A stretch of 64,000 nt of DNA, taken from assembly GCA_001796335.1 (NCBI GenBank), contig MGMF01000001.1, positions 186,001 through 250,000 of the forward strand, in the 5' to 3' direction. The DNA is from Chloroflexi bacterium GWB2_49_20. GTDB taxonomy: Bacteria > Chloroflexota > Anaerolineae > Anaerolineales > Villigracilaceae. Numbering within the stretch: position 1 is the stretch's first letter; every line of letters starts with the position of its first letter. This document shows positions 43,777-56,174 of the stretch, in pieces. The notes beneath the pieces are model-generated. The model made no database searches. It saw nothing but the letters and a program-made list of their open reading frames with translations, and was not told where the DNA came from. Position numbers and translations under genes: made by a program.

Positions 43777-45072
43777 ATGAAAATTGCGATCATCGGAGCA
43801 GGCTTTGGGGGCATGGCCGCTGCTTATGACCTTGCCAAAGCCGGGCATGACATCACCGTCTTTGAAGCCGAAGACCACGCCGGTGGACTGGCCTCGGGTT
43901 TTAAAGAACCGGGCTGGGATTGGTCGGTGGAGAAGTTCTATCATCATTGGTTCGCCGGGGACAAACACATGCTCGGCCTGGTGGAAGAACTCGGCTGGAG
44001 TGATAAAGTCATCTTCCCGCGCCCATATACCGTCATGCACTACCAGGATAAATGGTATCCATTTGATTCGATCCTCAAGGCCATCCTTTTCCCCGGCCTG
44101 GGCTGGGGATTCAACAAACTCCGCTTTGGGTTGGTCGGATTATTTTTGCGGTTGACGAATAACTGGTATTCCCTCGAAAAAGTGACCGTGGATGAGTGGA
44201 TGCGCAAGTGGGCCGGTGAGAAAGTCTACAGGCTGATGTGGGAGCCCCTCGTCATCGGCAAGTTCGGTGATAAATATTATAAACAGGTCAACATGGCCTG
44301 GATGTGGGCACGCATCAAGGCCCGCACCACCCGCCTGGGTACCTTTGAAGGTGGATTTCAGAATTTCGCGGACCTTTTTGCAGAAAGATTGGTTGAAATG
44401 GGCGTGGAGTTACGCTTCTCCACACGCATCAAACATATCTCACGCCAGTCCGAAACAGGTTCGCTCCTCATCGAGACCGAAACCGCCAGCCAGTCCTTCG
44501 AGCGCGTCCTGGTCACCACCTCCCCCTCCAGCCTCGCCCGGCTGGTAACCTCCCTGCCCGAAAGTTATCTAAAAAATCTTTTGGAACTAAAAAGCATGGC
44601 TGCCCTGGTCATGGTATTTTCGCTCAAGCATCAACTTTCCAACCAGGGCTACTACTGGTTCAACCTGCCCAAGAACGCCGGTTTTCCCTGCCTGGCTTTG
44701 GTGGAACACACCAATTATGTCTCCCCTGAGCATTTTGGCGGGGACCATATCGTCTACATGGGCGATTACCTTGAACCTGACCACGAGTATTTCAAACTCA
44801 GCCAGGCAGAACTGCTTGAGCGTTTTATGCCCGGTCTCAAGCGCATCAACCCGGACTTCCAACCGGATTGGATCAAGAAAACCTGGTTGTTCTCCACCAA
44901 TTATGCCCAGCCGGTTCCCCTGGTGAACCACTCCCGCAACATCCCCCCCATCCAGACACCCCTGCCGGGATTATACTTTGCCAGCATGAGCCAGGTCTAT
45001 CCCTGGGACCGGGGCACCAACTTCGCCGTGGAGATCGGGCGTCGTGCCGCCCGCATGATCCTGGGATCTTGA
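43777..45072 (+). CDS. FAD-dependent oxidoreductase (amine oxidase / protoporphyrinogen-oxidase-like)
   Basis: A 431-residue FAD enzyme of the amine-oxidase superfamily. It shows the dinucleotide loop AIIGAGFGGMAAAYDLAKAG, the second motif VFEAEDHAGGLASGF, and the C-terminal FAD-binding GLYFASMSQVYPWDRGTNFA. It resembles the family of membrane-associated NAD(P)/FAD oxidoreductases often found near lipid or glycan genes. The substrate is unknown. The ATG has TGGAGTATTT as ribosome-binding site. The region upstream is filled by R1 and R2 repeats. Confidence 0.82.
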   Translation: MKIAIIGAGFGGMAAAYDLAKAGHDITVFEAEDHAGGLASGFKEPGWDWSVEKFYHHWFAGDKHMLGLVEELGWSDKVIFPRPYTVMHYQDKWYPFDSILKAILFPGLGWGFNKLRFGLVGLFLRLTNNWYSLEKVTVDEWMRKWAGEKVYRLMWEPLVIGKFGDKYYKQVNMAWMWARIKARTTRLGTFEGGFQNFADLFAERLVEMGVELRFSTRIKHISRQSETGSLLIETETASQSFERVLVTTSPSSLARLVTSLPESYLKNLLELKSMAALVMVFSLKHQLSNQGYYWFNLPKNAGFPCLALVEHTNYVSPEHFGGDHIVYMGDYLEPDHEYFKLSQAELLERFMPGLKRINPDFQPDWIKKTWLFSTNYAQPVPLVNHSRNIPPIQTPLPGLYFASMSQVYPWDRGTNFAVEIGRRAARMILGS

Positions 45073-45394: not shown

Positions 45395-45829
45395 TCATTG
45401 GATGGGGGCGTTTGGGTCATGGGGGAACTCTTCCATGATGTCGCGAAGCCAATCGTCGTTTTTGCCTATCTGCGCGCTCTTTGCAAGGCTGTCTGCGGGG
45501 GAATTGGCACGCAGACGAACCAGGCTGGTGAGCCTAGCAACTGAAAAGCTGATGACGCGCAAGTCCGTGAGGCTTTCTTCGGGGCTGGCGGCAGGATGAG
45601 CCTGGCGCAACTCAAGATGGCGGGAGATCAAGGTACGAATGAGGCTAATTTCGTTGTCTATGTCCTGGACGTTTGGTACTTCGGCATTTACTGGCGCAAC
45701 CCCGGGCGAGGCAGGACTCGCCCCTACGGTGGCACGAAGAGGGTTTAAACGGGAGGAATAAAAGCCGTGTTTTAAGGCATTGTGGTTGCCAGATTGGCCG
45801 CCGCGCTTACGAGATCGTTTATGGTTCAC
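45395..45829 (-). CDS. Small protein with GNxNALKHGF motif, terminase-associated
   Basis: A 144-residue protein starting with GTG 45829, because AAGGAGCATTCT lies just ahead on the minus strand; longer in-frame starts have no such site. The basic N-terminus RKRGGQSGNHNALKHGFYSS is a motif seen in small proteins that accompany terminase genes, probably DNA-binding. The second half, NEISLIRTLISRHLELRQAH, is helical and resembles TIEITLIRSLIAGFLC of the neighbouring 148-residue protein, so the two appear paralogous. It may be a small-terminase-like partner. The third and last gene of the module. Confidence 0.6.
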   Translation of the reverse strand: MNHKRSRKRGGQSGNHNALKHGFYSSRLNPLRATVGASPASPGVAPVNAEVPNVQDIDNEISLIRTLISRHLELRQAHPAASPEESLTDLRVISFSVARLTSLVRLRANSPADSLAKSAQIGKNDDWLRDIMEEFPHDPNAPIQ

Positions 45830-45948
45830 AGAATGCTCCTTGAAAGACTGACTATTGACGATAGGTTTGTCATGTGTTCCGGTGTTTCGGTGACATGCAT
45901 GGATCGCCACGCCCCAAAAATAATGGGACTTTGCAATGACAGAAAGCC

Positions 45949-46395
45949 CTACGGGGTGATGGTGGTTGGGGGAATATAAGGAGGATCTGGAGGCAAGGGG
46001 TCGAGTGTGCCTGGAGGCAGATCATCCGGAACTGCAAAGCCAGCTTCATACATCTGGCGATAGATACCCAATTTGATGCGAGCACGATGGTAAGCCGCTT
46101 CAAGCTCTTTTTCATATTTAGGGTGGGTGTGTTGATATTCACGCTGGTACTTGATGAGATTGGCAATTGTGCTGGATGCAACACTGACTGCGTAGAGTGA
46201 CTGTAACGAAAGGTCAGGGTCGGTGATGGGCCGGGTTGATGTGGTGCACAGAAACCCAGCAATGAGGGAACGGATAAGAGTGATCTCAATGGTGGCGTCC
46301 TCGATGGGATGATCGAGGATGTTCCGGCGCTCCTGTTCAGTGTAGTAAGGCCAATAGGGGCTGGCCTGGGGGATATGGTTGGGAATTGGGGGCAT
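45949..46395 (-). CDS. Small helical protein paralogous to its neighbour, terminase-associated
   Basis: A 148-residue protein with a proline-rich N- and C-terminus and a helical middle (ATIEITLIRSLIAGFL, then SVASSTIANLIKYQREYQHT). The helical part aligns with the neighbouring 144-residue protein, but it lacks the GNxNALKHGF segment. AAAAGGAGAATCC precedes its ATG on the minus strand. Both lie downstream of the large terminase gene. No clear function beyond this context. Confidence 0.6.
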   Translation of the reverse strand: MPPIPNHIPQASPYWPYYTEQERRNILDHPIEDATIEITLIRSLIAGFLCTTSTRPITDPDLSLQSLYAVSVASSTIANLIKYQREYQHTHPKYEKELEAAYHRARIKLGIYRQMYEAGFAVPDDLPPGTLDPLPPDPPYIPPTTITP

Positions 46396-46539
46396 GGATT
46401 CTCCTTTTAGTTCAAGTGAAAAGAATTAACGCAAAGGCGCTAAGGCGCAAAGGAAATAATTGTGGAATCTGTGAGGGTGGATCATGGTTTTCGTAAATGG
46501 CATGGGGGCTCCTTGGTGAGAGTTGCACGTTTTCACGTT

Positions 46540-46674
46540 GCAGGTTTCAAGTTTCACGTTTCAAGTTTCACGTGTGAGTGATTGACAATAGACAATACGA
46601 TGAGACAGTACCTATGTTGACGATACGGTGAGGCACGATAAAACAGTGTGTATACAGTACCTATGTAGACGATG
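46540..46674. repeat. Short direct repeats in the terminase gap
   Basis: tttcacgtttcaag-type units are tandem near 46545-46575. The 20-mer acagtacctatgttgacgat at 46605-46624 recurs with one change at 46654-46673. The segment aacagtgtgtatac echoes the 5' extension of R1 copies D and E. The 281-nt gap holds no gene. Confidence 0.55.
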
Positions 46675-46676
46675 TT

Positions 46677-48275
46677 TTAATAGTTATGATCCATGAAGTC
46701 GAGGAGGTCGGTGTTGTCGCCGAGGGTGGGCTGAATGTCATTGTCCCGGAAATTGAGGCCGAGGCTTCCTACGGTATTGGGATAGATGATGATGGTGGGG
46801 GAATGGAAGCTCCAATCAAGGGTGTCAAGCTGGGTGACGAGAGAGTCGGCGAGGAGGAAGTCGTCATGTATGAGAGTGCCATCGGAATCTCGTTTGCCCT
46901 CGGGGACACCCCAACGCAGGGTCTTGGTGGGACCGGGCAGGACTTCGGACTGGCAGGTGCGGTACTGGATTTCGACCTCGGGGGTGGAAGAACAATCACG
47001 GAAGCGCCCGGTGTCGATGATGGCAAGGAAGCGGTAGCCGATCTCGCTCTTGGTGGCGGAGGTGAACTTGACGGGGATGACTTTGCCGGGGAAGGATTTG
47101 TCGAGCAAAGCCCAGAGACCTTCACCCACGCCGGTGGCGTCCATGACAATGTAGAGGGGGTTCCAGGATTCGGCGAGGGATTTGAGTTGACCAAAGACGG
47201 TGAGGTGGTTCTGGCCGGTCCATTCAACCCTGTGAAGGATGCGGTAGGTGGGGTAATTGAGGGTGGAGACGGTGGAGGTGTCAACCTCGGCAATGGAAAG
47301 GGCTGCGGAATCACGGGTGGGATTGGCGAGGCGGGAGGCCGGGTCGGCCATGACGGCTTCGTCCTGACCAGCGAGGTCAATGAGGAAAGTGACCCCCCTG
47401 TGGTTCTCCCCAGACTCATCGGCCCCCCTCCAACTCCCCCCAAAATCTCCGATTTTAGGGGGAGTTTTAAGAGGTGAACCTGAAAAAATAAGTGCCAAAC
47501 GTGCTGAATTGAACATGCTGGAGGAGGCGTCGATCTCTTCGTTGAAATACTGGGTTTTGACGAGAGGGTGCTGGCGACCCCAGCGGGCGATGACGGAATC
47601 GACATGGGCTCCATAGTTGGGGAGGACGCGGCGAACATGGTCAGCATCGACCATGAAAAGGCGCTGGCGACCATCCTGTTCCTGGGCATAACGGGCGTGA
47701 CGAATCTCCTGAGAGAGCAGGGTGGAACTGGTCCAGAGGGTGCCGGCAAAGAGGCAGGTGGCTTGGGTGGAGGCGACCATGGGCAGGAATTTGCGCTGGT
47801 AGAGGGCGGGGGAGATGTCCTGGGCTTCGTTGATGATGAGCAGGAGGGAGGCGGTGGCACCGACAACGTTGGAAGATAAGTTGCCGGAGAGGAAGGAGAT
47901 GCGGGCCAGGTTGATGAGGCGCATGAAGCCGCCATGTTTGCGCCAGCGCCCGGCGGTGAGGGGGTTTTTGTTGAGAAGTTGGTCGAAACGGAGGAGGGCA
48001 TTGATGGTCTGGGGTTTGTAGGTGGGGTTGACGGCGACGATGCCGACCGGGAATTTGGAATATAGATCGAGAAGGTAGGCCATGAGATGGATGAGGAATT
48101 CATCCTTACCGGATTGGCGGGGAAAGACGATGACAATGGAATCGCCGCGGTGCTTTTGGATCGAATCGAGCAAGTTGGGGATGGGGTCGAGCTGATAGGG
48201 ACGCAGATGAATCCCGGTGGTGCTCTGGACGTAGTTGGGGGTGGAGGTGAGGAGAGAGTCGATGGGCAGGGTCAT
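46677..48275 (-). CDS. Terminase large-subunit-like ATPase/nuclease
   Basis: A 532-residue terminase-type protein. The ATPase motor has Walker A VIVFPRQSGKDEF (near residues 48-60) and Walker B LLLIINEAQD (145-153). A C-terminal RNase-H-like nuclease follows with FLIDLAGQDEAV, YIVMDATGVGEG and DDFLLADSL carrying the acidic residues. Phage terminases package DNA into capsids, but no portal, capsid or tail genes are nearby. Residues about 270-281 (KTPPKIGDFGGSW) come from an in-frame palindrome. Base composition is like the backbone, not like the defence islands on either side. Long overlapping frames exist on both strands but only this one has motifs. Confidence 0.75.
   Translation of the reverse strand: MTLPIDSLLTSTPNYVQSTTGIHLRPYQLDPIPNLLDSIQKHRGDSIVIVFPRQSGKDEFLIHLMAYLLDLYSKFPVGIVAVNPTYKPQTINALLRFDQLLNKNPLTAGRWRKHGGFMRLINLARISFLSGNLSSNVVGATASLLLIINEAQDISPALYQRKFLPMVASTQATCLFAGTLWTSSTLLSQEIRHARYAQEQDGRQRLFMVDADHVRRVLPNYGAHVDSVIARWGRQHPLVKTQYFNEEIDASSSMFNSARLALIFSGSPLKTPPKIGDFGGSWRGADESGENHRGVTFLIDLAGQDEAVMADPASRLANPTRDSAALSIAEVDTSTVSTLNYPTYRILHRVEWTGQNHLTVFGQLKSLAESWNPLYIVMDATGVGEGLWALLDKSFPGKVIPVKFTSATKSEIGYRFLAIIDTGRFRDCSSTPEVEIQYRTCQSEVLPGPTKTLRWGVPEGKRDSDGTLIHDDFLLADSLVTQLDTLDWSFHSPTIIIYPNTVGSLGLNFRDNDIQPTLGDNTDLLDFMDHNY
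47432..47466. repeat. 16-bp palindrome inserted in the terminase gene
   Basis: Arms aactccccccaaaatc (47432-47447) and gattttagggggagtt (47451-47466) pair with one mismatch around a TCC loop. It resembles an intergenic palindromic repeat, yet the reading frame continues through it. Confidence 0.7.
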
Positions 48276-48610: not shown

Positions 48611-50098
48611 ATGACAAATTTTCAATTCAAAACAACTGACCGCGAATATCTTCCCCCAGACGATGGGAAAGTAGGGGATATTTTCTCCAGATTGGGTTAT
48701 GGAATCTCTGATGCAGTTGCTGATCTTGTTGATAACTCGGTCGACGCAATTGCTGACAAAGTTCATATTCGATTCGTCCGAGGAACTGAAGGTATTTATA
48801 GTGTAATTATTGCTGATAACGGGAAAGGGATGAATGGTGATGAATTGCGAGAGGCTATGCGTTTCGGTTCCCGCTCAACCAAATCTGATGCACAACTTGG
48901 TAAATATGGAATTGGTCTAAAATCAGCATCCCTTAGCCAAGCTGAGACTGTAACAGTCTTAACGAAAAAAAATGGATCTACGCTTGGTCGCCGCTGGACG
49001 CTAGAGAATGTAAAGATCGGCTGGTCATGTGAAATTTTATTAGAATCTGATGTTCAAAATGCGTTTACATCTAAATTTGGCGAGTTCAGTATCAAGGATT
49101 CTGGGACCATTATTATATGGGAACGACTCGAACATCTTAAGGCATTACCTAATAACATTAATCAAATATTAGAAAAAACCATTAAAAAGTTGATTACCGA
49201 ACTGGGAATCCGGTTTCACCGCTTCATCGAAGAAGGATGTTTGGAAATTAGTATTGATCAACAATTTGGTTTGGAACCACCCACCGGGATTAATTTATTC
49301 GTTCCTGCATTGAACCCGTTTTCTTACGAACAACCTGGACGTTCAGATTATCCAATTACTTTGAAATTCGAATTGAATAATACTCCCGTAGATGTCCATT
49401 GCCATATATGGCCTCCAAAAACCAAAAGCCTTGGTTATCGATTGGGTGGTGGCAAGGTTGCGCTTCGACAAGGTTTTTACTTTTATCGTAATGACAGGAT
49501 TATCCAAGCTGGTGGATGGAACGGAATTCGAGCTGATGACGGTGAGCCACATTTCTCTTTGGCAAGAGTCAGGGTTGATTTGCCGCCAGCGTTAGATTCA
49601 ATGTTTAAACTAGATGTGACAAAGAGTCGTCTTGATCCATCTCCGAATTTCATCAATGCTCTAAAAACCGCTTCCACCAATGGTATCACTTTTGATAAAT
49701 TCATTGACCATGCTGAGAATGCTTACCGAAAGCAAAAGAAAATAGAGGGTGCACGATTTCCCCTGATACCGGGAAAAGGTATATCAGCCAAAGCACAAAA
49801 GGCAATTGCCAACATTTTGGAAGAAAAGGGAACAGGACGACCCAAAAAAGTTTCGTTTAAATGGTCATCGTTAGATCTTGATGAAATTGTCCGATTAGAC
49901 CCTGAAAATGATGTGATTAATTTGAACTCCAAGTATAAGAAATATCTCGTGGAAGGTTCAAGTGGTGATGCACCAGTACTCAAACTTGTACTGATGTTCC
50001 TGTTTCAAAATCAACTTGAGAAATCGTTTATTACACAGAAAACATTGGATTGGTTGCAATCCATTAACCAAACGCTTTTAGCTTCTATGAAGGAATAA
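48611..50098 (+). CDS. MORC/MutL-like GHKL ATPase of a Z1-type defence cassette
   Basis: A 495-residue GHKL ATPase. The N-box is SDAVADLVDNSVDAIADK (Asp38 where many have Glu, Asn42), G1 is ADNGKGM (68-74), and G2 is LGKYGIGLKSAS (96-107). The C-terminal half has a MutL/MORC transducer-like region ending SKYKKYLVEGSSG. It matches the bacterial MORC-like ATPases that Iyer, Abhiman and Aravind linked to restriction-modification systems. The next two genes, a PD-(D/E)xK protein (3 nt gap) and a Z1 protein (4 nt overlap), form one operon with it. Its likely role is ATP-driven DNA clamping for the nuclease. Confidence 0.85.
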   Translation: MTNFQFKTTDREYLPPDDGKVGDIFSRLGYGISDAVADLVDNSVDAIADKVHIRFVRGTEGIYSVIIADNGKGMNGDELREAMRFGSRSTKSDAQLGKYGIGLKSASLSQAETVTVLTKKNGSTLGRRWTLENVKIGWSCEILLESDVQNAFTSKFGEFSIKDSGTIIIWERLEHLKALPNNINQILEKTIKKLITELGIRFHRFIEEGCLEISIDQQFGLEPPTGINLFVPALNPFSYEQPGRSDYPITLKFELNNTPVDVHCHIWPPKTKSLGYRLGGGKVALRQGFYFYRNDRIIQAGGWNGIRADDGEPHFSLARVRVDLPPALDSMFKLDVTKSRLDPSPNFINALKTASTNGITFDKFIDHAENAYRKQKKIEGARFPLIPGKGISAKAQKAIANILEEKGTGRPKKVSFKWSSLDLDEIVRLDPENDVINLNSKYKKYLVEGSSGDAPVLKLVLMFLFQNQLEKSFITQKTLDWLQSINQTLLASMKE

Positions 50099-50101
50099 GT
50101 A

Positions 50102-51097
50102 GTGGAAACACTTTCATGGGAAGCGTTTGAAAAACATCTGTATGGGTTAAGCCCGAGCATTCTCAATATGGGGGGGACACGCAATGTTAGAGTTGGTTTT
50201 GATCCCATATCCCGAAGTATGTTTATCCGATTACCGATTGATCCGGAAACATCAGTTCCTCCCAGCACTTTCGCTGAACTTGAGAGTGGAGTACTAAAAG
50301 ATGAAACTGGATTTGTTCTTGAGATCAAGACAACAGCAAAACAACTATTTCGCGAATTTCATCGATTTGCAGAAATTATTACTGAAGATTTTGAGCAACC
50401 CGGGCAAACTGCATTTGGGGCATTTGAAACAGCAACCCACCGCTGGCGCGAACTTACATCACGAAAAGAATTATTAACTGAAGACCAGCAACTAGGCCTT
50501 CAAGGTGAACTAGTATTTCTTCGCTCTTTGTTGCAAGTTCAAAGGCCGCAGTCAATTATGGCATGGACAGGCAGAAACAAAGCACTAGCTGAACGTCATG
50601 ATTTCCGAATTAATAAAATTGATATTGAAGTAAAGTCAACAAGAAGTTCTCACCGCCGACATATCATCCACGGAATTGGGCAACTGCAAGCAAGTGAAGG
50701 GCATATACTTTATTTGCTCTCACTAAAATTTGAAGGTGCAGGTTTGGGACTAGGGAGAAGCCTTTGCGATGAGATCGAAGGTATTCGTAAAAGCCTTGCC
50801 AACACAGAAATTGAACGCATGGAATTCGAGAGCCGACTTCTTTCAACCGGATATAACGATAACGATGCACAACACTACCAAGAGAAGTTGATTCTTGCCG
50901 ACCCTCCAGTGCTTGTTATTGTCAACGATAAGTTTCCAAGAATTACAAGAGAAATAATGTCAGAAACAATTTCACCAGAAGTATCAGGTCGAATAGACGA
51001 CGTATCATATCGAGTAGATATTGAAGGCCTTGGTGTGATGCAAGGCTCGGAAGCATTCACAGATGTTCTTGGCAAGCTCAGAATGGAGATTGAATGA
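50102..51097 (+). CDS. PD-(D/E)xK motif protein (DUF4420 type)
   Basis: A 331-residue protein. A Glu-bearing helix (GLQGELVFLRSLLQ, Glu136) is followed by HDFRINKIDIEVKST, giving Asp167 and Glu176-x-Lys178, the core of a restriction-endonuclease fold. It matches the DUF4420 'PD-(D/E)XK motif protein' that accompanies MORC-like ATPases and Z1 proteins. It is probably the DNA-cutting subunit. GTG 50102 is the start, with AAGGAATAAGTA upstream. The stop overlaps the Z1 gene start (ATGA). Confidence 0.82.
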   Translation: METLSWEAFEKHLYGLSPSILNMGGTRNVRVGFDPISRSMFIRLPIDPETSVPPSTFAELESGVLKDETGFVLEIKTTAKQLFREFHRFAEIITEDFEQPGQTAFGAFETATHRWRELTSRKELLTEDQQLGLQGELVFLRSLLQVQRPQSIMAWTGRNKALAERHDFRINKIDIEVKSTRSSHRRHIIHGIGQLQASEGHILYLLSLKFEGAGLGLGRSLCDEIEGIRKSLANTEIERMEFESRLLSTGYNDNDAQHYQEKLILADPPVLVIVNDKFPRITREIMSETISPEVSGRIDDVSYRVDIEGLGVMQGSEAFTDVLGKLRMEIE

Positions 51098-53979
51098 ATT
51101 CAGTTATTGATGGCATAGCGCGATCACTTGATTTAGCCCTCGAAATTCTGGAAAAAACACAACCTGATAATTTAAAAGCAGCGATGAATATGGTTGCTTT
51201 TTACGCCCGTATAGATTTACCTGATAATCTCATTGAATATTTGATTGAACACATTTCAATCTGTGACCTAAATGATCGTATTCTTCATTCACTTACTTTT
51301 GCAATTCAGGCTTGGGATCACGAAGAAACACCGGTATGGGCAAATGGAACATTGCCACATACAAACGAAAGAAGAAGGGAAATTATCAAGAAACTCGGTT
51401 TCAATTCCAATCATCTGACTGTAATCAACAATAAAATCCCGAGATATACTGATGCTGAAATTCCTATCGTAATTTCTAATAATCATGAACCTTGGTACAA
51501 TGATCGTCAAAAAGACATAACAGACTTCTACTGGAAAGATTATAAATCTCACCTTGAAGAATCATGGGATTTTGAGTCAATTGGGATTCTCGACATAAGT
51601 ATTGATGATGTAATCTCCAGATTGTCAGACCCGACCCGCGCAGAAATCTTTCCTGTCAAAGGTCTTGTAATGGGCTTCGTGCAAAGTGGGAAAACTTCAC
51701 ATTTTAGCGGCCTTATTACAAAAGCCGCTGATGCAGGGTATCGATTAATAATTGTTTTGGCTGGCACAATGAATATTTTACGCCAACAAACACAAAGACG
51801 AATCGATAAAGAAATTGTTGGAATTGAATTATTGGACCCCGATGAGTATGGGACGGATGCTGATTGGAAAAATTTTGTTTCTCATGGGGGTCGACCAAGT
51901 TATATTGGTTCATTTGATTGGGAGAGACTAACTGACAAGCACGATGACTATCAACCATTAAGCAAGCACCTTAGTATTTTAGAATTCAAACCAGCAGACC
52001 GCACAAAACCATTTAATCACCCTGATAACCTGAGAACTGCCAGCGCAAAACTTGCAGTAATCAAAAAAGTGCCATCCAGAATCAACAAGTTGTGCAGGGA
52101 TTTAAAGCGGCTGAGCGAGTTAAGAAGTGCACTGATGCATGTTCCCACTCTAATAATTGACGACGAATCCGATCAAGCATCCGTAAACACAATCGACCAG
52201 TCAAAGCCTGGTAAAGAAGGTAAGCGAACTAGTACCAACAAAGCAATTGGAGAGCTTCTCAAGATGTTGCCACGTGCCCAATACGTTGGATATACAGCAA
52301 CGCCATTTGCCAATGTTTTTATTAATCCTTATGATGCTGATGATCTTTTCCCAAAAGATTTCATCATAAGCCTTCCAAGACCAAAGGGGTATATGGGAGT
52401 ATCGGACTTCTTCGATTTTGAAAATGAATTCGAGAAAGGCGATTTTAGGGGAAATTACAATGCTTTCGTACGTGCTGTGGAAGGGGACAACGAAGATCCG
52501 GAAAACCTTCCAATGGCAATTGATTCCTTTGTTCTTTCTGGCGCCATTAAACTTTTTCGCGAAAGCAAAGATCCTGAACGCTTTAAGTATTTTAAACACC
52601 ACACAATGTTGGTTCATCATTCATCAAAACGTATTGTTCATGAGGAAGACAGGGATGTAGTGGAGAATATTTTTAATGGGGGTGTCCGTTATCAACGTCC
52701 GGCTGGTTTGAGTGAGCTTCACAGACTTTTTGAAAACGACTTTGTGCCCGTGTCAAAAATTCGTGCCCCCGATTTTCCTTTTCCTAAGAATTTCGAGGAA
52801 CTGCTCCCGTTTATCTCAAGATGCATTTCAAAAATTTGTGCAGGAAAACCTGTACTGGTAGTCAATGGAGACGATAAACATCGGGATGACACACCTGAAT
52901 TTGAACAAACTTCGGTATGGGCGATTCTGGTTGGAGGTGCAAAACTCTCCAGAGGTTATACAGTTGAAGGATTAACAATTTCATATTACAGGCGACCAAC
53001 AGGCGCCGGAGATACTTTAATGCAGATGGGGCGATGGTTTGGATTCAGAAATGGCTATAAAGATCTAGTTCGACTTTTTATAGGTAGCAGGGAACCAAAG
53101 GGACGAACCACGGTTGATCTTTATGAAGCCTTTGGCGCGGTTTGCCGGGATGAAGAATCGCTTCGTAGTGAACTTCAGAAGTATTCCAAGGGAGGCCTCC
53201 TTCCCAGGCAAGTACCGCCACTTGTTCGACAGCACCTTCCTCTACTCCCACTCACTTCGCGAAACAAAATGTTCAACGCAGAAATATGTTCTCGTGATTT
53301 TGCCGGAGAATGGAAAGAAAAAACATCTGCTCCATCTCAAATCAATCCAATCAAGAGAAATCAAGCTATTACAGCAACCCTACTTTCCTCATGTCAGATT
53401 AGTCCTCTTCTCAAAATATCACATACCAATACGGATAGTAATAGTAAACGCCAGTATGATGCAATGATTGGGCTTGTTTCAGGAGAGAATGTACTCACTT
53501 TTCTTAAGGAATACAGCTGGGCAGATGGAAAGAAGTCAAATTATCTTGAGATAGAATATATTGATATGATGCTCAAGAAGAATAAACTCAATAAATGGCT
53601 TGTTCTTCTCCCTCAATCAAACACGGAAAGAAAATTCACTCCACCAAACACACAACTGAAAGACTTATCGGTTGTCACGCGAAAACGGGTGTCCACTAGC
53701 CGATTTAAGGTTTATTCTGAACCACGGCATCGAGAAGCTGCTATTTATTTAAGCGGGTGTGGTAATGTTCAATATCCATGCCTGTCACTCTTGGAATATC
53801 GAGATCCCGAAGCTCCTGTTCTACTATTGTATTTTGTCCAAGAGGATGCAACCTCCAAAACAGAGATTACTGTTGGTTTTGGAATTCAATATCCAGGACA
53901 AAAAGTGGAAAAGGCAATTATTTGGACGGTAAAGGACCCCGACGATGAGGATGCAGTTGTAATCCAGCAAGAAACATGA
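51094..53979 (+). CDS. Z1-domain superfamily II helicase-like ATPase
   Basis: A 961-residue Z1 protein. The helicase motifs are intact: Walker A GFVQSGKTSH (G194-T201), motif II IIDDESDQA (Asp356-Asp357-Glu358), motif III YTATPFANVF (near 400), and motif VI QMGRWFGFR (from Gln644). An N-terminal helical region (1-180) and a C-terminal domain (700-961) of unknown role flank the helicase. Z1 proteins are the diagnostic component of the MORC-ATPase/REase/methylase systems. It probably remodels DNA together with the two preceding proteins. The start overlaps the upstream stop, and the downstream methylase/Vsr pair is convergent. Confidence 0.88.
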   Translation: MNSVIDGIARSLDLALEILEKTQPDNLKAAMNMVAFYARIDLPDNLIEYLIEHISICDLNDRILHSLTFAIQAWDHEETPVWANGTLPHTNERRREIIKKLGFNSNHLTVINNKIPRYTDAEIPIVISNNHEPWYNDRQKDITDFYWKDYKSHLEESWDFESIGILDISIDDVISRLSDPTRAEIFPVKGLVMGFVQSGKTSHFSGLITKAADAGYRLIIVLAGTMNILRQQTQRRIDKEIVGIELLDPDEYGTDADWKNFVSHGGRPSYIGSFDWERLTDKHDDYQPLSKHLSILEFKPADRTKPFNHPDNLRTASAKLAVIKKVPSRINKLCRDLKRLSELRSALMHVPTLIIDDESDQASVNTIDQSKPGKEGKRTSTNKAIGELLKMLPRAQYVGYTATPFANVFINPYDADDLFPKDFIISLPRPKGYMGVSDFFDFENEFEKGDFRGNYNAFVRAVEGDNEDPENLPMAIDSFVLSGAIKLFRESKDPERFKYFKHHTMLVHHSSKRIVHEEDRDVVENIFNGGVRYQRPAGLSELHRLFENDFVPVSKIRAPDFPFPKNFEELLPFISRCISKICAGKPVLVVNGDDKHRDDTPEFEQTSVWAILVGGAKLSRGYTVEGLTISYYRRPTGAGDTLMQMGRWFGFRNGYKDLVRLFIGSREPKGRTTVDLYEAFGAVCRDEESLRSELQKYSKGGLLPRQVPPLVRQHLPLLPLTSRNKMFNAEICSRDFAGEWKEKTSAPSQINPIKRNQAITATLLSSCQISPLLKISHTNTDSNSKRQYDAMIGLVSGENVLTFLKEYSWADGKKSNYLEIEYIDMMLKKNKLNKWLVLLPQSNTERKFTPPNTQLKDLSVVTRKRVSTSRFKVYSEPRHREAAIYLSGCGNVQYPCLSLLEYRDPEAPVLLLYFVQEDATSKTEITVGFGIQYPGQKVEKAIIWTVKDPDDEDAVVIQQET

Positions 53980-54084
53980 AATCGGCCATCTCAATAAAAA
54001 ACTAATAGATCAGAATTATTTCAGAATTGCATTGAAATTTAAGGTTAGTTTACTGCTAAAACTTTAAGAGGTACAATTCTTTTG

Positions 54085-54492
54085 TTAAATGTTAATAGCA
54101 TCCAAAATTCTTTTTACTACAAGGTCGGGATTAGACAATTCATGTTCCCAAACCCTTATAACTTTCCACCCCATTTTGATTAACTCTTCCGAGACATAAT
54201 CATCACGACTCTTATTACCCAAGAGTTTCTTCTTCCAAAACTCCTGGTTATTTTTTGGCATGGTTGAATGCATAGGACATCCATGCCAGAAACAACCATC
54301 AACAAAAAGAGTGGTTTTATGCTTGAGAAAGACAAAATCAGGCTTCCCAAGCAAGGGCTGATTCCTCCGCCACCCCGAAATATGATTGGAACGCAGGATT
54401 TTAATCATAACCAGTTCAGTATCCTTATTGCCTTTCCCCCGAATATGCGACATTACTTCTGAACGCTTTTCTTTTGTAAAAACATCTGGCAT
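54085..54492 (-). CDS. vsr: Very-short-patch mismatch repair endonuclease (Vsr)
   Basis: A 135-residue Vsr that nicks beside T:G mismatches formed by deamination of 5-methylcytosine. It has the start MPDVFTKEKRSEVMSHIRGK, the catalytic GKPDFVFLKHKTTLFVDGCF with Asp52, and the FWHGCPMHS segment with Zn/His residues at about 70-75. Length matches E. coli Vsr (about 156) minus a short tail. I chose ATG 54492 because it begins 7 nt after the methylase stop and gives the family N-terminus; a longer frame overlaps the methylase. It follows the cytosine methylase as in Dcm-Vsr pairs. Confidence 0.9.
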   Translation of the reverse strand: MPDVFTKEKRSEVMSHIRGKGNKDTELVMIKILRSNHISGWRRNQPLLGKPDFVFLKHKTTLFVDGCFWHGCPMHSTMPKNNQEFWKKKLLGNKSRDDYVSEELIKMGWKVIRVWEHELSNPDLVVKRILDAINI

Positions 54493-54499
54493 GTTAAAC

Positions 54500-56029
54500 T
54501 TATTCCGAGTCTTGTAATACTTTGAAGACAATAGTTGCAATTTTACTCGCCAACATTGGAGGTACGGCATTTCCAACTTGGTGGTATTGTTGAGTTCTTG
54601 TACCTTCAAAGAAATAATTGTCTGGAAATGTCTGCAGACGTGCCGCTTCTCTAACAGTTAAACTGCGACATTGCGAAGTATCATAATGAATGTAGTAATG
54701 ACCATCTTTGCTTATGTGCGAAACTACTGTTGTTGATGGCTTTCCACAGACTTGAACCCGAAAACGGTCATTGAACATTGAACCATCAATGGCTTCCTGT
54801 ACATTCTCGTGGTTGGGAAGCAATTCTTTTGGAAAATCACTTAAGGTAGGGGAACGACCATAAACACGGGCAAATACAGAAGCAAAGAAATATCTATACA
54901 GATCATCACCAATATGTCCTCTGGTTTCATGATTGCAAACTCCAGCTAACGCCCTATCCACATACCATTCCTTGTATTTTTTGGGAGCAACTTGAACATC
55001 CATATAGGTAGATCCACGCGAAATGCTTGCACCGATATTCTTCAACTCATTTTTTATAACATTTTGAAGATCAGGCGCAATGTCTTTTATCCATATTGCC
55101 TTGGAGATTTTCTTTATTGTATTCTGCCATTCTTCGACTGAATCTTCTTTTTTTGAAAGCCCGCTTCGCAATTTAGGTAAATCGCCTATCACATCATCAA
55201 TGGAAACTTGATTGGTTTTTTCCAACAGCCCCATTTCAGATTTGTAAATATCGGATCGAATCCCAAAGATAAAAATTCTATGCCTAGCTTGAGGAATACC
55301 GTATTCTTCCGAGCGTACGATAAAATCTTGTGGCTTCAATTCACCATTTGCAGGGTACTTTTTAGAAAACGAGAATAGTTCATAAGCCAAAAGATTATTA
55401 GTATTAAATCTATTCACATTTAAAGGATTTTTTAAATCAGAAATAATTAAATCAAAAGTATTCTGTTTTTTTACTTTTGATGAAAGCAACCCTTTCACAT
55501 TCTCCATAACAAACACAGGAGGTTGATGATCTGCTAATATTTGCAAGTATTCCTTGTAAAGGAAGTGACGACTATCTGTCGCATATTTCTCCTCGTTTTC
55601 TCCCCGCATTCGGGATCGACCAACCAATGAATAAGCTTGACATGGAGGACCTCCAATTAAGACCCAATTAGTTACCCCATCCAATGCTTTTTTAATTCGT
55701 GACTTAACTGTATCTCGATTAGTATTTCCCAGTTCAGCAAGCCAAGCTTCTGATTTTGCGCTGGATGCTTCAATTGGGTAATTGTTAAAAAGTTCCTCTT
55801 TACTAATATTTCCTCTTAAATATTCATAATAGCTGAATGGAATTGATTTAGGAGTAAATTGGCGAAAAAAAGCTCTTAATTCCAATGTTCGATGGGCAAT
55901 TTCATCTTTCTCAATCGAGAGCTTTACTTTATAATAAGAATCTCCTTTATCTGTTCTTAAAGATGCAAAACCCTCCCCCAAACCTCCGGGGCCGGCAAAA
56001 ATGTCAATGATGGGTATGGGAATATTCAT
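54500..56029 (-). CDS. DNA (cytosine-5-)-methyltransferase
   Basis: A 509-residue C5-cytosine methyltransferase. Motif I is IDIFAGPGGLGEGF (9-22), motif IV GGPPCQAYS with catalytic Cys130, motif VI FVMENVKGLL, motif VIII QARHRIFIFGIR, and the C-terminal QVGNAVPP (motif X). A variable target-recognition region lies between. I favour ATG 56029, which starts just before motif I; ATG 56053 is possible, and neither has a clear ribosome-binding site. It is convergent to the Z1 operon and paired with vsr. It presumably protects host DNA from the Z1/REase complex. Base use is AT-rich. Confidence 0.9.
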   Translation of the reverse strand: MNIPIPIIDIFAGPGGLGEGFASLRTDKGDSYYKVKLSIEKDEIAHRTLELRAFFRQFTPKSIPFSYYEYLRGNISKEELFNNYPIEASSAKSEAWLAELGNTNRDTVKSRIKKALDGVTNWVLIGGPPCQAYSLVGRSRMRGENEEKYATDSRHFLYKEYLQILADHQPPVFVMENVKGLLSSKVKKQNTFDLIISDLKNPLNVNRFNTNNLLAYELFSFSKKYPANGELKPQDFIVRSEEYGIPQARHRIFIFGIRSDIYKSEMGLLEKTNQVSIDDVIGDLPKLRSGLSKKEDSVEEWQNTIKKISKAIWIKDIAPDLQNVIKNELKNIGASISRGSTYMDVQVAPKKYKEWYVDRALAGVCNHETRGHIGDDLYRYFFASVFARVYGRSPTLSDFPKELLPNHENVQEAIDGSMFNDRFRVQVCGKPSTTVVSHISKDGHYYIHYDTSQCRSLTVREAARLQTFPDNYFFEGTRTQQYHQVGNAVPPMLASKIATIVFKVLQDSE

Positions 56030-56174
56030 AATTCGAAGCTGATAATAAAGCATCCTTCATTTTCAAAATATCATACCGCAAAAGAGAACAGTGTCAATAT
56101 ACCATCAAACATATAATGATTTATAAGGGCTGGTGGCTAAATAAGATTGTTTAACGCACAAAATAAATGACAAA

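Follow-up and report, generated by a model that had tools for sequence, protein, structure and literature searches.

A five-gene MORC–DUF4420–Z1 cassette in a Chloroflexi genome: a probable ATP-dependent restriction-modification system with a methylase–Vsr module of separate ancestry

Five adjacent genes from Chloroflexi bacterium GWB2_49_20, located in a 64,000-nucleotide stretch (contig MGMF01000001.1, positions 186,001 to 250,000; hereafter the window), are compared here with the closest described systems. Iyer, Abhiman and Aravind defined in 2008 (PMC2292703) a MORC operon of type 3, in which a MORC protein, an SFII/Z1 helicase and a nuclease of the restriction endonuclease fold are frequently joined by a Dcm methylase and Vsr. 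The same paper proposes that MORC proteins loop the DNA that lies between a recognition site and a cleavage site, and that the bacterial group which includes the MORC/Z1 restriction systems was the source of eukaryotic MORC proteins. The MZA anti-phage system (mzaABCDE) is described as validated in PMC9523054, where MzaA is said to occur in a few related systems only and where gene-context embedding predicted a system, in Type I and Type II forms, with a core of Z1, PD-(D/E)XK nuclease and cytosine methylase. A modified GCAGC motif has been reported for four mza-encoding strains (PMC10687267). In the CglI restriction-modification (R-M) system, ATP hydrolysis by the Z1 motor (N.CglI) depends on unmethylated sites and on the partner nuclease (PMC4267653). 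An experimental mechanism for MORC/Z1 restriction systems was not found in the literature.

The genes of the cassette are arranged as follows:
48611..50098, plus strand: MORC-type GHKL ATPase, MzaB homologue (495 amino acids; Pfam, NCBIfam, PADLOC)
50102..51097, plus strand: DUF4420 PD-(D/E)xK nuclease, MzaD homologue (331 amino acids, GTG start; Pfam)
51094..53979, plus strand: Z1-domain SF2-like ATP-driven motor, MzaC homologue (961 amino acids; Pfam, motifs, structure model)
54085..54492, minus strand: Vsr-type endonuclease (about 135 amino acids from ATG 54492, stop at 54085; TIGR00632)
54500..56053, minus strand: DNA cytosine-5 methyltransferase (517 amino acids, alternative start at 56029; Pfam, PADLOC DrmMII)

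An earlier note on this DNA had placed three genes on the plus strand and the methylase and Vsr genes on the minus strand; all five reading frames are open and arranged as it stated, and its end position of 56029 coincides with an internal ATG of the methylase open reading frame (ORF), 54500-56053. The MORC and DUF4420 genes are separated by 3 bp, while the DUF4420 and Z1 genes overlap by 4 bp. The Vsr ATG at 54492 lies 7 bp past the methylase stop and is likely the true start, rather than TTG 54609, at which a longer ORF opens; the start residue is the same in a close homologue at locus L163. Family assignments by Pfam, NCBIfam and PADLOC are concordant for all five proteins, and in alignments of up to 97 homologues the catalytic positions show little or no variation. 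The key motifs, described earlier as intact, are present in all five proteins and conserved among relatives.

Judged by these features, the cassette is a case of the kind predicted by Iyer et al. in 2008, as had been proposed from its composition. Every sequence feature stated in their account of the type 3 operon is found in it: (i) the MORC signature GhXhhpXXRhl; (ii) the helicase motif DThhQXuRhFG; (iii) the nuclease pattern E-D-ExK; (iv) a cytosine methylase; (v) Vsr. No difference in composition was found with respect to that account, the comparison being one of composition and not of gene order. The nearest experimentally tested kin, by homology, is MZA. The cassette possesses homologues of MzaB, MzaC and MzaD, with scores that are significant yet far under the NCBIfam equivalog cut-offs, but its order is MORC–DUF4420–Z1 instead of MORC–Z1–DUF4420–AIPR, and its Z1 protein belongs to a separate branch. 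MzaA had no match among the eight proteins scanned, namely the five of the cassette and three encoded upstream. The Type I system of PMC9523054 has six genes, is linked with endonucleases of DNA repair and is not described with AIPR; it has the same core as the cassette and, likened by description, is likely the AIPR-less branch to which the cassette belongs. CglI and NgoAVII likewise combine a Z1-containing SF2 motor, a nuclease and a C5-methylase (PMC4267653). However, their nuclease is of the phospholipase D (PLD) fold with a B3 domain and a MORC protein is missing, whereas the cassette has MORC and a nuclease that matches DUF4420 PD-(D/E)xK only, without the PLD-fold R-protein of the CglI type. 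The methylase resembles DrmMII of DISARM, yet a scan of the cassette and of genes upstream of it gave neither DrmA nor DrmB.

Relatives of the trio have been collected by a Z1 pair alignment search, which gave 80 loci, supplemented by 15 loci of the same phylum and four plasmid loci; a contig scan with the DUF4420 protein alone had yielded none. The resulting Z1 tree comprises 100 loci, and the gene neighbourhoods were labelled with iterative profiles. Three groups are seen: W (75 loci, including the window), the MZA side (18 loci) and P (seven loci with a short Z1). Branch W is strongly supported, consists mostly of Actinomycetota with some Alphaproteobacteria, and contains the best relatives of the MORC, DUF4420 and Z1 proteins of the window alike. 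Within it MORC is found in 73/75 loci, a C5-methylase in 50/75, Vsr in 48/75 and AIPR in 0/75. DUF4420 was detected in 38 W loci, in every one upstream of Z1, between MORC and Z1. The MZA-side loci typically follow the order MORC–Z1–DUF4420–AIPR, with AIPR in 14/18. The neighbourhoods of the W loci show no further gene family of comparable conservation. The Z1 of the window shares 42-44% identity with its best relatives and groups with those of Stappia and Bradyrhizobium (support 99); the branches are long, and the program warns of long-branch attraction. A scan of 396 genomes of the same class gave no close copy.

All five gene types occur together in 20 further W loci, so the arrangement is not a product of chance. 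The convergent layout, pointed out in the earlier note, is real in the window but is not a feature of the system: the other complete loci use ten other layouts, one of them divergent, and only in the window do Vsr and methylase converge on the trio. The layout is thus no clue to function. New here are the definition of the AIPR-less branch, the correction concerning layout and the finding that the methylase–Vsr module and the trio differ in ancestry.

Several relatives carry additional genes. Among the short-Z1 loci, DUF4420 is followed by an Exo_endo_phos nuclease (L026, 10052-11017) or by an HhH-GPD DNA glycosylase (L031, 9928-10890), pointing to a DNA-repair partner in this group. On the mobilizable Arthrobacter plasmid p2MP, a 1096-amino-acid sacsin-domain protein, possibly a second GHKL partner, is encoded between the methylase and the MORC–DUF4420–Z1 genes (L041, 1982-5272).

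The MORC ATPase matches Pfam HATPase_c_3 (3e-27, over the cut-off) and PADLOC MzaB (3.9e-36), and reaches 153 bits with the NCBIfam MzaB model, under the cut-off of 850. It possesses the motifs DNSVD, DNGKGM and GKYGIGLK; residues N42, D69 and K104 are kept in all aligned sequences except one, which has a gap there. The MORC signature is represented by GFYFYRNDRII at residues 288-298, where R296 is invariant in all loci, and the nearest solved chains are MORC2 and MORC3. The Z1 protein (Pfam Z1 3.3e-53, over the cut-off; PADLOC MzaC 3.8e-76) carries a Walker A motif GFVQSGKT (194-201), DESD (357-360), YTATP (400-404) and DTLMQMGRWFG (640-650), the last of which fits the SFII helicase motif. 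Its structure model, with a predicted local distance difference test score (pLDDT) of 80.4, matches SF2 helicases, among them HsdR, the motor subunit of EcoR124I.

The DUF4420 protein (Pfam 3.6e-41, over the cut-off; PADLOC MzaD 1.3e-10) holds the residues E136, D167, E176 and K178 of the E-D-ExK pattern, invariant in 62/62 homologues, and in its model (pLDDT 90.5) they are surrounded by the helix-strand order of PD-(D/E)xK enzymes. Its C-terminal domain (residues 123-325) gives weak but coherent alignments with restriction nucleases, namely DpnI (Z 6.7), HincII and EcoRV, and with the nuclease of SPARDA. The N-terminal half (residues 5-107) adopts in the model a fold like that of YbjN and type III secretion chaperones (Z about 5) and may serve for docking. 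These matches came from a second-look aligner, at Z 4-7, a range about which the tool itself warns; Foldseek gave no significant match of the model to the PDB. As only the second-look aligner returned matches, and weak ones, the structural evidence supports the nuclease fold without proving it. A search by sequence found no PDB relatives of either Z1 or DUF4420.

The methylase contains the motifs GGPPCQ, ENVKG and GNAVPP and matches Pfam DNA_methylase (2.5e-44, over the cut-off), with DrmMII as its best PADLOC model (3.2e-95). The Vsr protein matches Pfam (1.8e-18, over the cut-off) and TIGR00632 (101.4 bits, over the curated cut-off of 97.85), as well as the E. coli Vsr structures 1cw0 and 1vsr; it carries FVDGCFWHGC, and E65, D91 and H109 (numbered on the 174-amino-acid ORF) are invariant in 61/61 sequences. 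In the methylase tree the window protein and four Chloroflexota methylases from the MZA side, 53-55% identical to it, form a group with 100% support. The nearest methylases, with 66% (G064) and 63% (G005) identity, come from genomes of the same family, and Vsr is the next gene in both. In G005 (locus L164) the neighbours of the pair are the DrmA and DrmB genes of a DISARM locus, with a type III R-M pair nearby; the pair of G064 adjoins a gene that matches PDC-M33A, a candidate system, and in G020 a methylase–Vsr pair follows an MZA operon. Because the pair is found beside such different partners, it appears to move between effector systems as an exchangeable module, and its presence in DISARM and elsewhere would account for the DrmMII label given by PADLOC. 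On this phylogenetic evidence the cassette is chimeric, with a trio from the AIPR-less branch and a methylase that clusters with Chloroflexota methylases. A CCWGG specificity, that of DrmMII in DISARM, was considered for the window methylase and is not claimed. The L164 defence island (G005 C1, 4334000-4353000), whose DISARM locus has its own Vsr, also holds an IetA-like ATPase.

Taken together, the cassette is probably an anti-phage system of the ATP-dependent R-M type. The C5-methylase would mark sites of the host DNA. On unmarked invading DNA, a dimer of the MORC ATPase, together with the Z1 motor, would clamp, loop or translocate the DNA using ATP and bring in the DUF4420 nuclease, leading to its cleavage, while Vsr would repair the T:G mismatches that follow deamination of methylated cytosine. 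From homology we infer that the trio acts as one complex and restricts phage, and likewise in what order the events follow, which site is recognized and how DUF4420 and Vsr share the work. The proposal is supported by the homology of the trio to MzaB, MzaC and MzaD, its intact motifs, its conservation and its association with methylase and Vsr. The invariant DUF4420 residues, the structural matches of DUF4420 and Z1, the site dependence of N.CglI and the modified GCAGC motif of mza-encoding strains also speak for it.

Several observations weigh against it. AIPR (MzaE), common on the MZA side, is absent from the whole genome, so results obtained for MZA may not transfer. No experiments on branch W were found in the literature. 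Since the ancestry of the methylase differs from that of the trio, it is from its position that it is taken to provide the cognate self-mark. At position 38 the MORC ATPase has Asp (ADLVDN) in place of the motif-I Glu of MORC2 (AELVDN) and MutL. As Asp is found in 71/72 sequences of W and 17/17 of the MZA side (88/89 with a residue there), D38 is, by alignment, a family trait and not damage; Glu occupies the position in 7/7 sequences of P. Finally, a Streptomyces subclade of 24 W loci lacks DUF4420, with Z1 directly after MORC where inspected. DUF4420 was not found anywhere in 14 such genomes, a scan in which the control set was also hitless although the model matched in other genomes. DUF4420 thus cannot be the nuclease everywhere, and with Vsr near 22/24 of these loci another nuclease, possibly Vsr, may take its place; as the Streptomyces loci are related to each other, the losses do not represent many independent events.

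The same subclade is an argument for an improbable alternative, in which Vsr is the working restriction nuclease, or a backup to DUF4420, delivered by MORC and Z1, and DUF4420 is otherwise employed. A Caulobacter Vsr-like protein that triggers a DNA damage response on loss of the methylase (PMC12907096) agrees with such a role. Nevertheless, the DUF4420 protein of the window keeps its four catalytic residues, and its Vsr stands in the classical place after the methylase, scores as a bona fide Vsr and, together with the methylase, also turns up at loci of DISARM and MZA. Slightly less doubtful, but still unlikely, is that the trio recognizes self without a methylase and that the methylase–Vsr pair is a separate solitary module which landed beside it. 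The separate ancestry, the opposite strands, the presence of such pairs beside DISARM and another candidate system, and the roughly one third of W loci without a methylase within 8 kb (50/75 have one, and some loci are truncated) would all fit. In most loci, however, the trio is adjoined by methylases of several separate lineages, which suggests a required but replaceable partner. It is very improbable that the cassette is what remains of a mobile defence island, degraded or without function, a view to which the adjoining terminase-like module, the variable slot and the missing AIPR subunit of MZA lend some colour. Five frames are open, with operon-like start/stop overlaps, every checked catalytic residue is kept, and the absence of AIPR is the rule in branch W.

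The cassette occupies the following region of the genome:
45073..56408, no strand assigned: variable slot between a FAD oxidoreductase gene and ssb, here holding a terminase-like module and the cassette

The conserved FAD oxidoreductase gene (43777-45072) and ssb (from 56409) are 11.3 kb apart in the window; in eight genomes of relatives the distance between them is 0.8-6.6 kb. The guanine-plus-cytosine (GC) content is 0.40 in the cassette, 0.54-0.55 in the flanking host genes and 0.58 in the terminase-like module. The cassette is a recent-looking insertion in this slot and, given the GC contents of 0.40 and 0.58, was probably acquired separately from the terminase-like module. That module (45395-48275) contains a terminase-large-like gene (Terminase_6C, PHROG terminase) preceded by two small ORFs, of which one carries the motif ALKHGFYS. 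Relatives of the gene occur in at least three more places in the same genome (70%, 52% and a 41% fragment) and sporadically in related genomes, and it looks like a recurrent solo-terminase module. It has been rejected as part of the system, as it is present at other places of this genome and the related loci conserve no neighbour of this kind. A promoter scan gave 27 sites, barely more than in shuffled sequences (22.0, standard deviation 4.7), and a terminator scan gave 7 against 6.7, without excess, so that no claim on regulation is made. Of the promoter-like sites the best (56097-56070, 11/12) stands a short way ahead of the methylase gene.

The Chloroflexota methylase–Vsr pair may be a portable self-marking cartridge, with DISARM, MZA and the AIPR-less trio, ATP-driven restriction machines that are not otherwise akin, reading the same methyl mark; this suggestion is put forward tentatively. 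If it is true, the shared module predicts that different effectors are protected by the same mark. The compact AIPR-less branch, with its defined gene set and separable marking module, represents a simpler target for reconstitution than the full MZA system.

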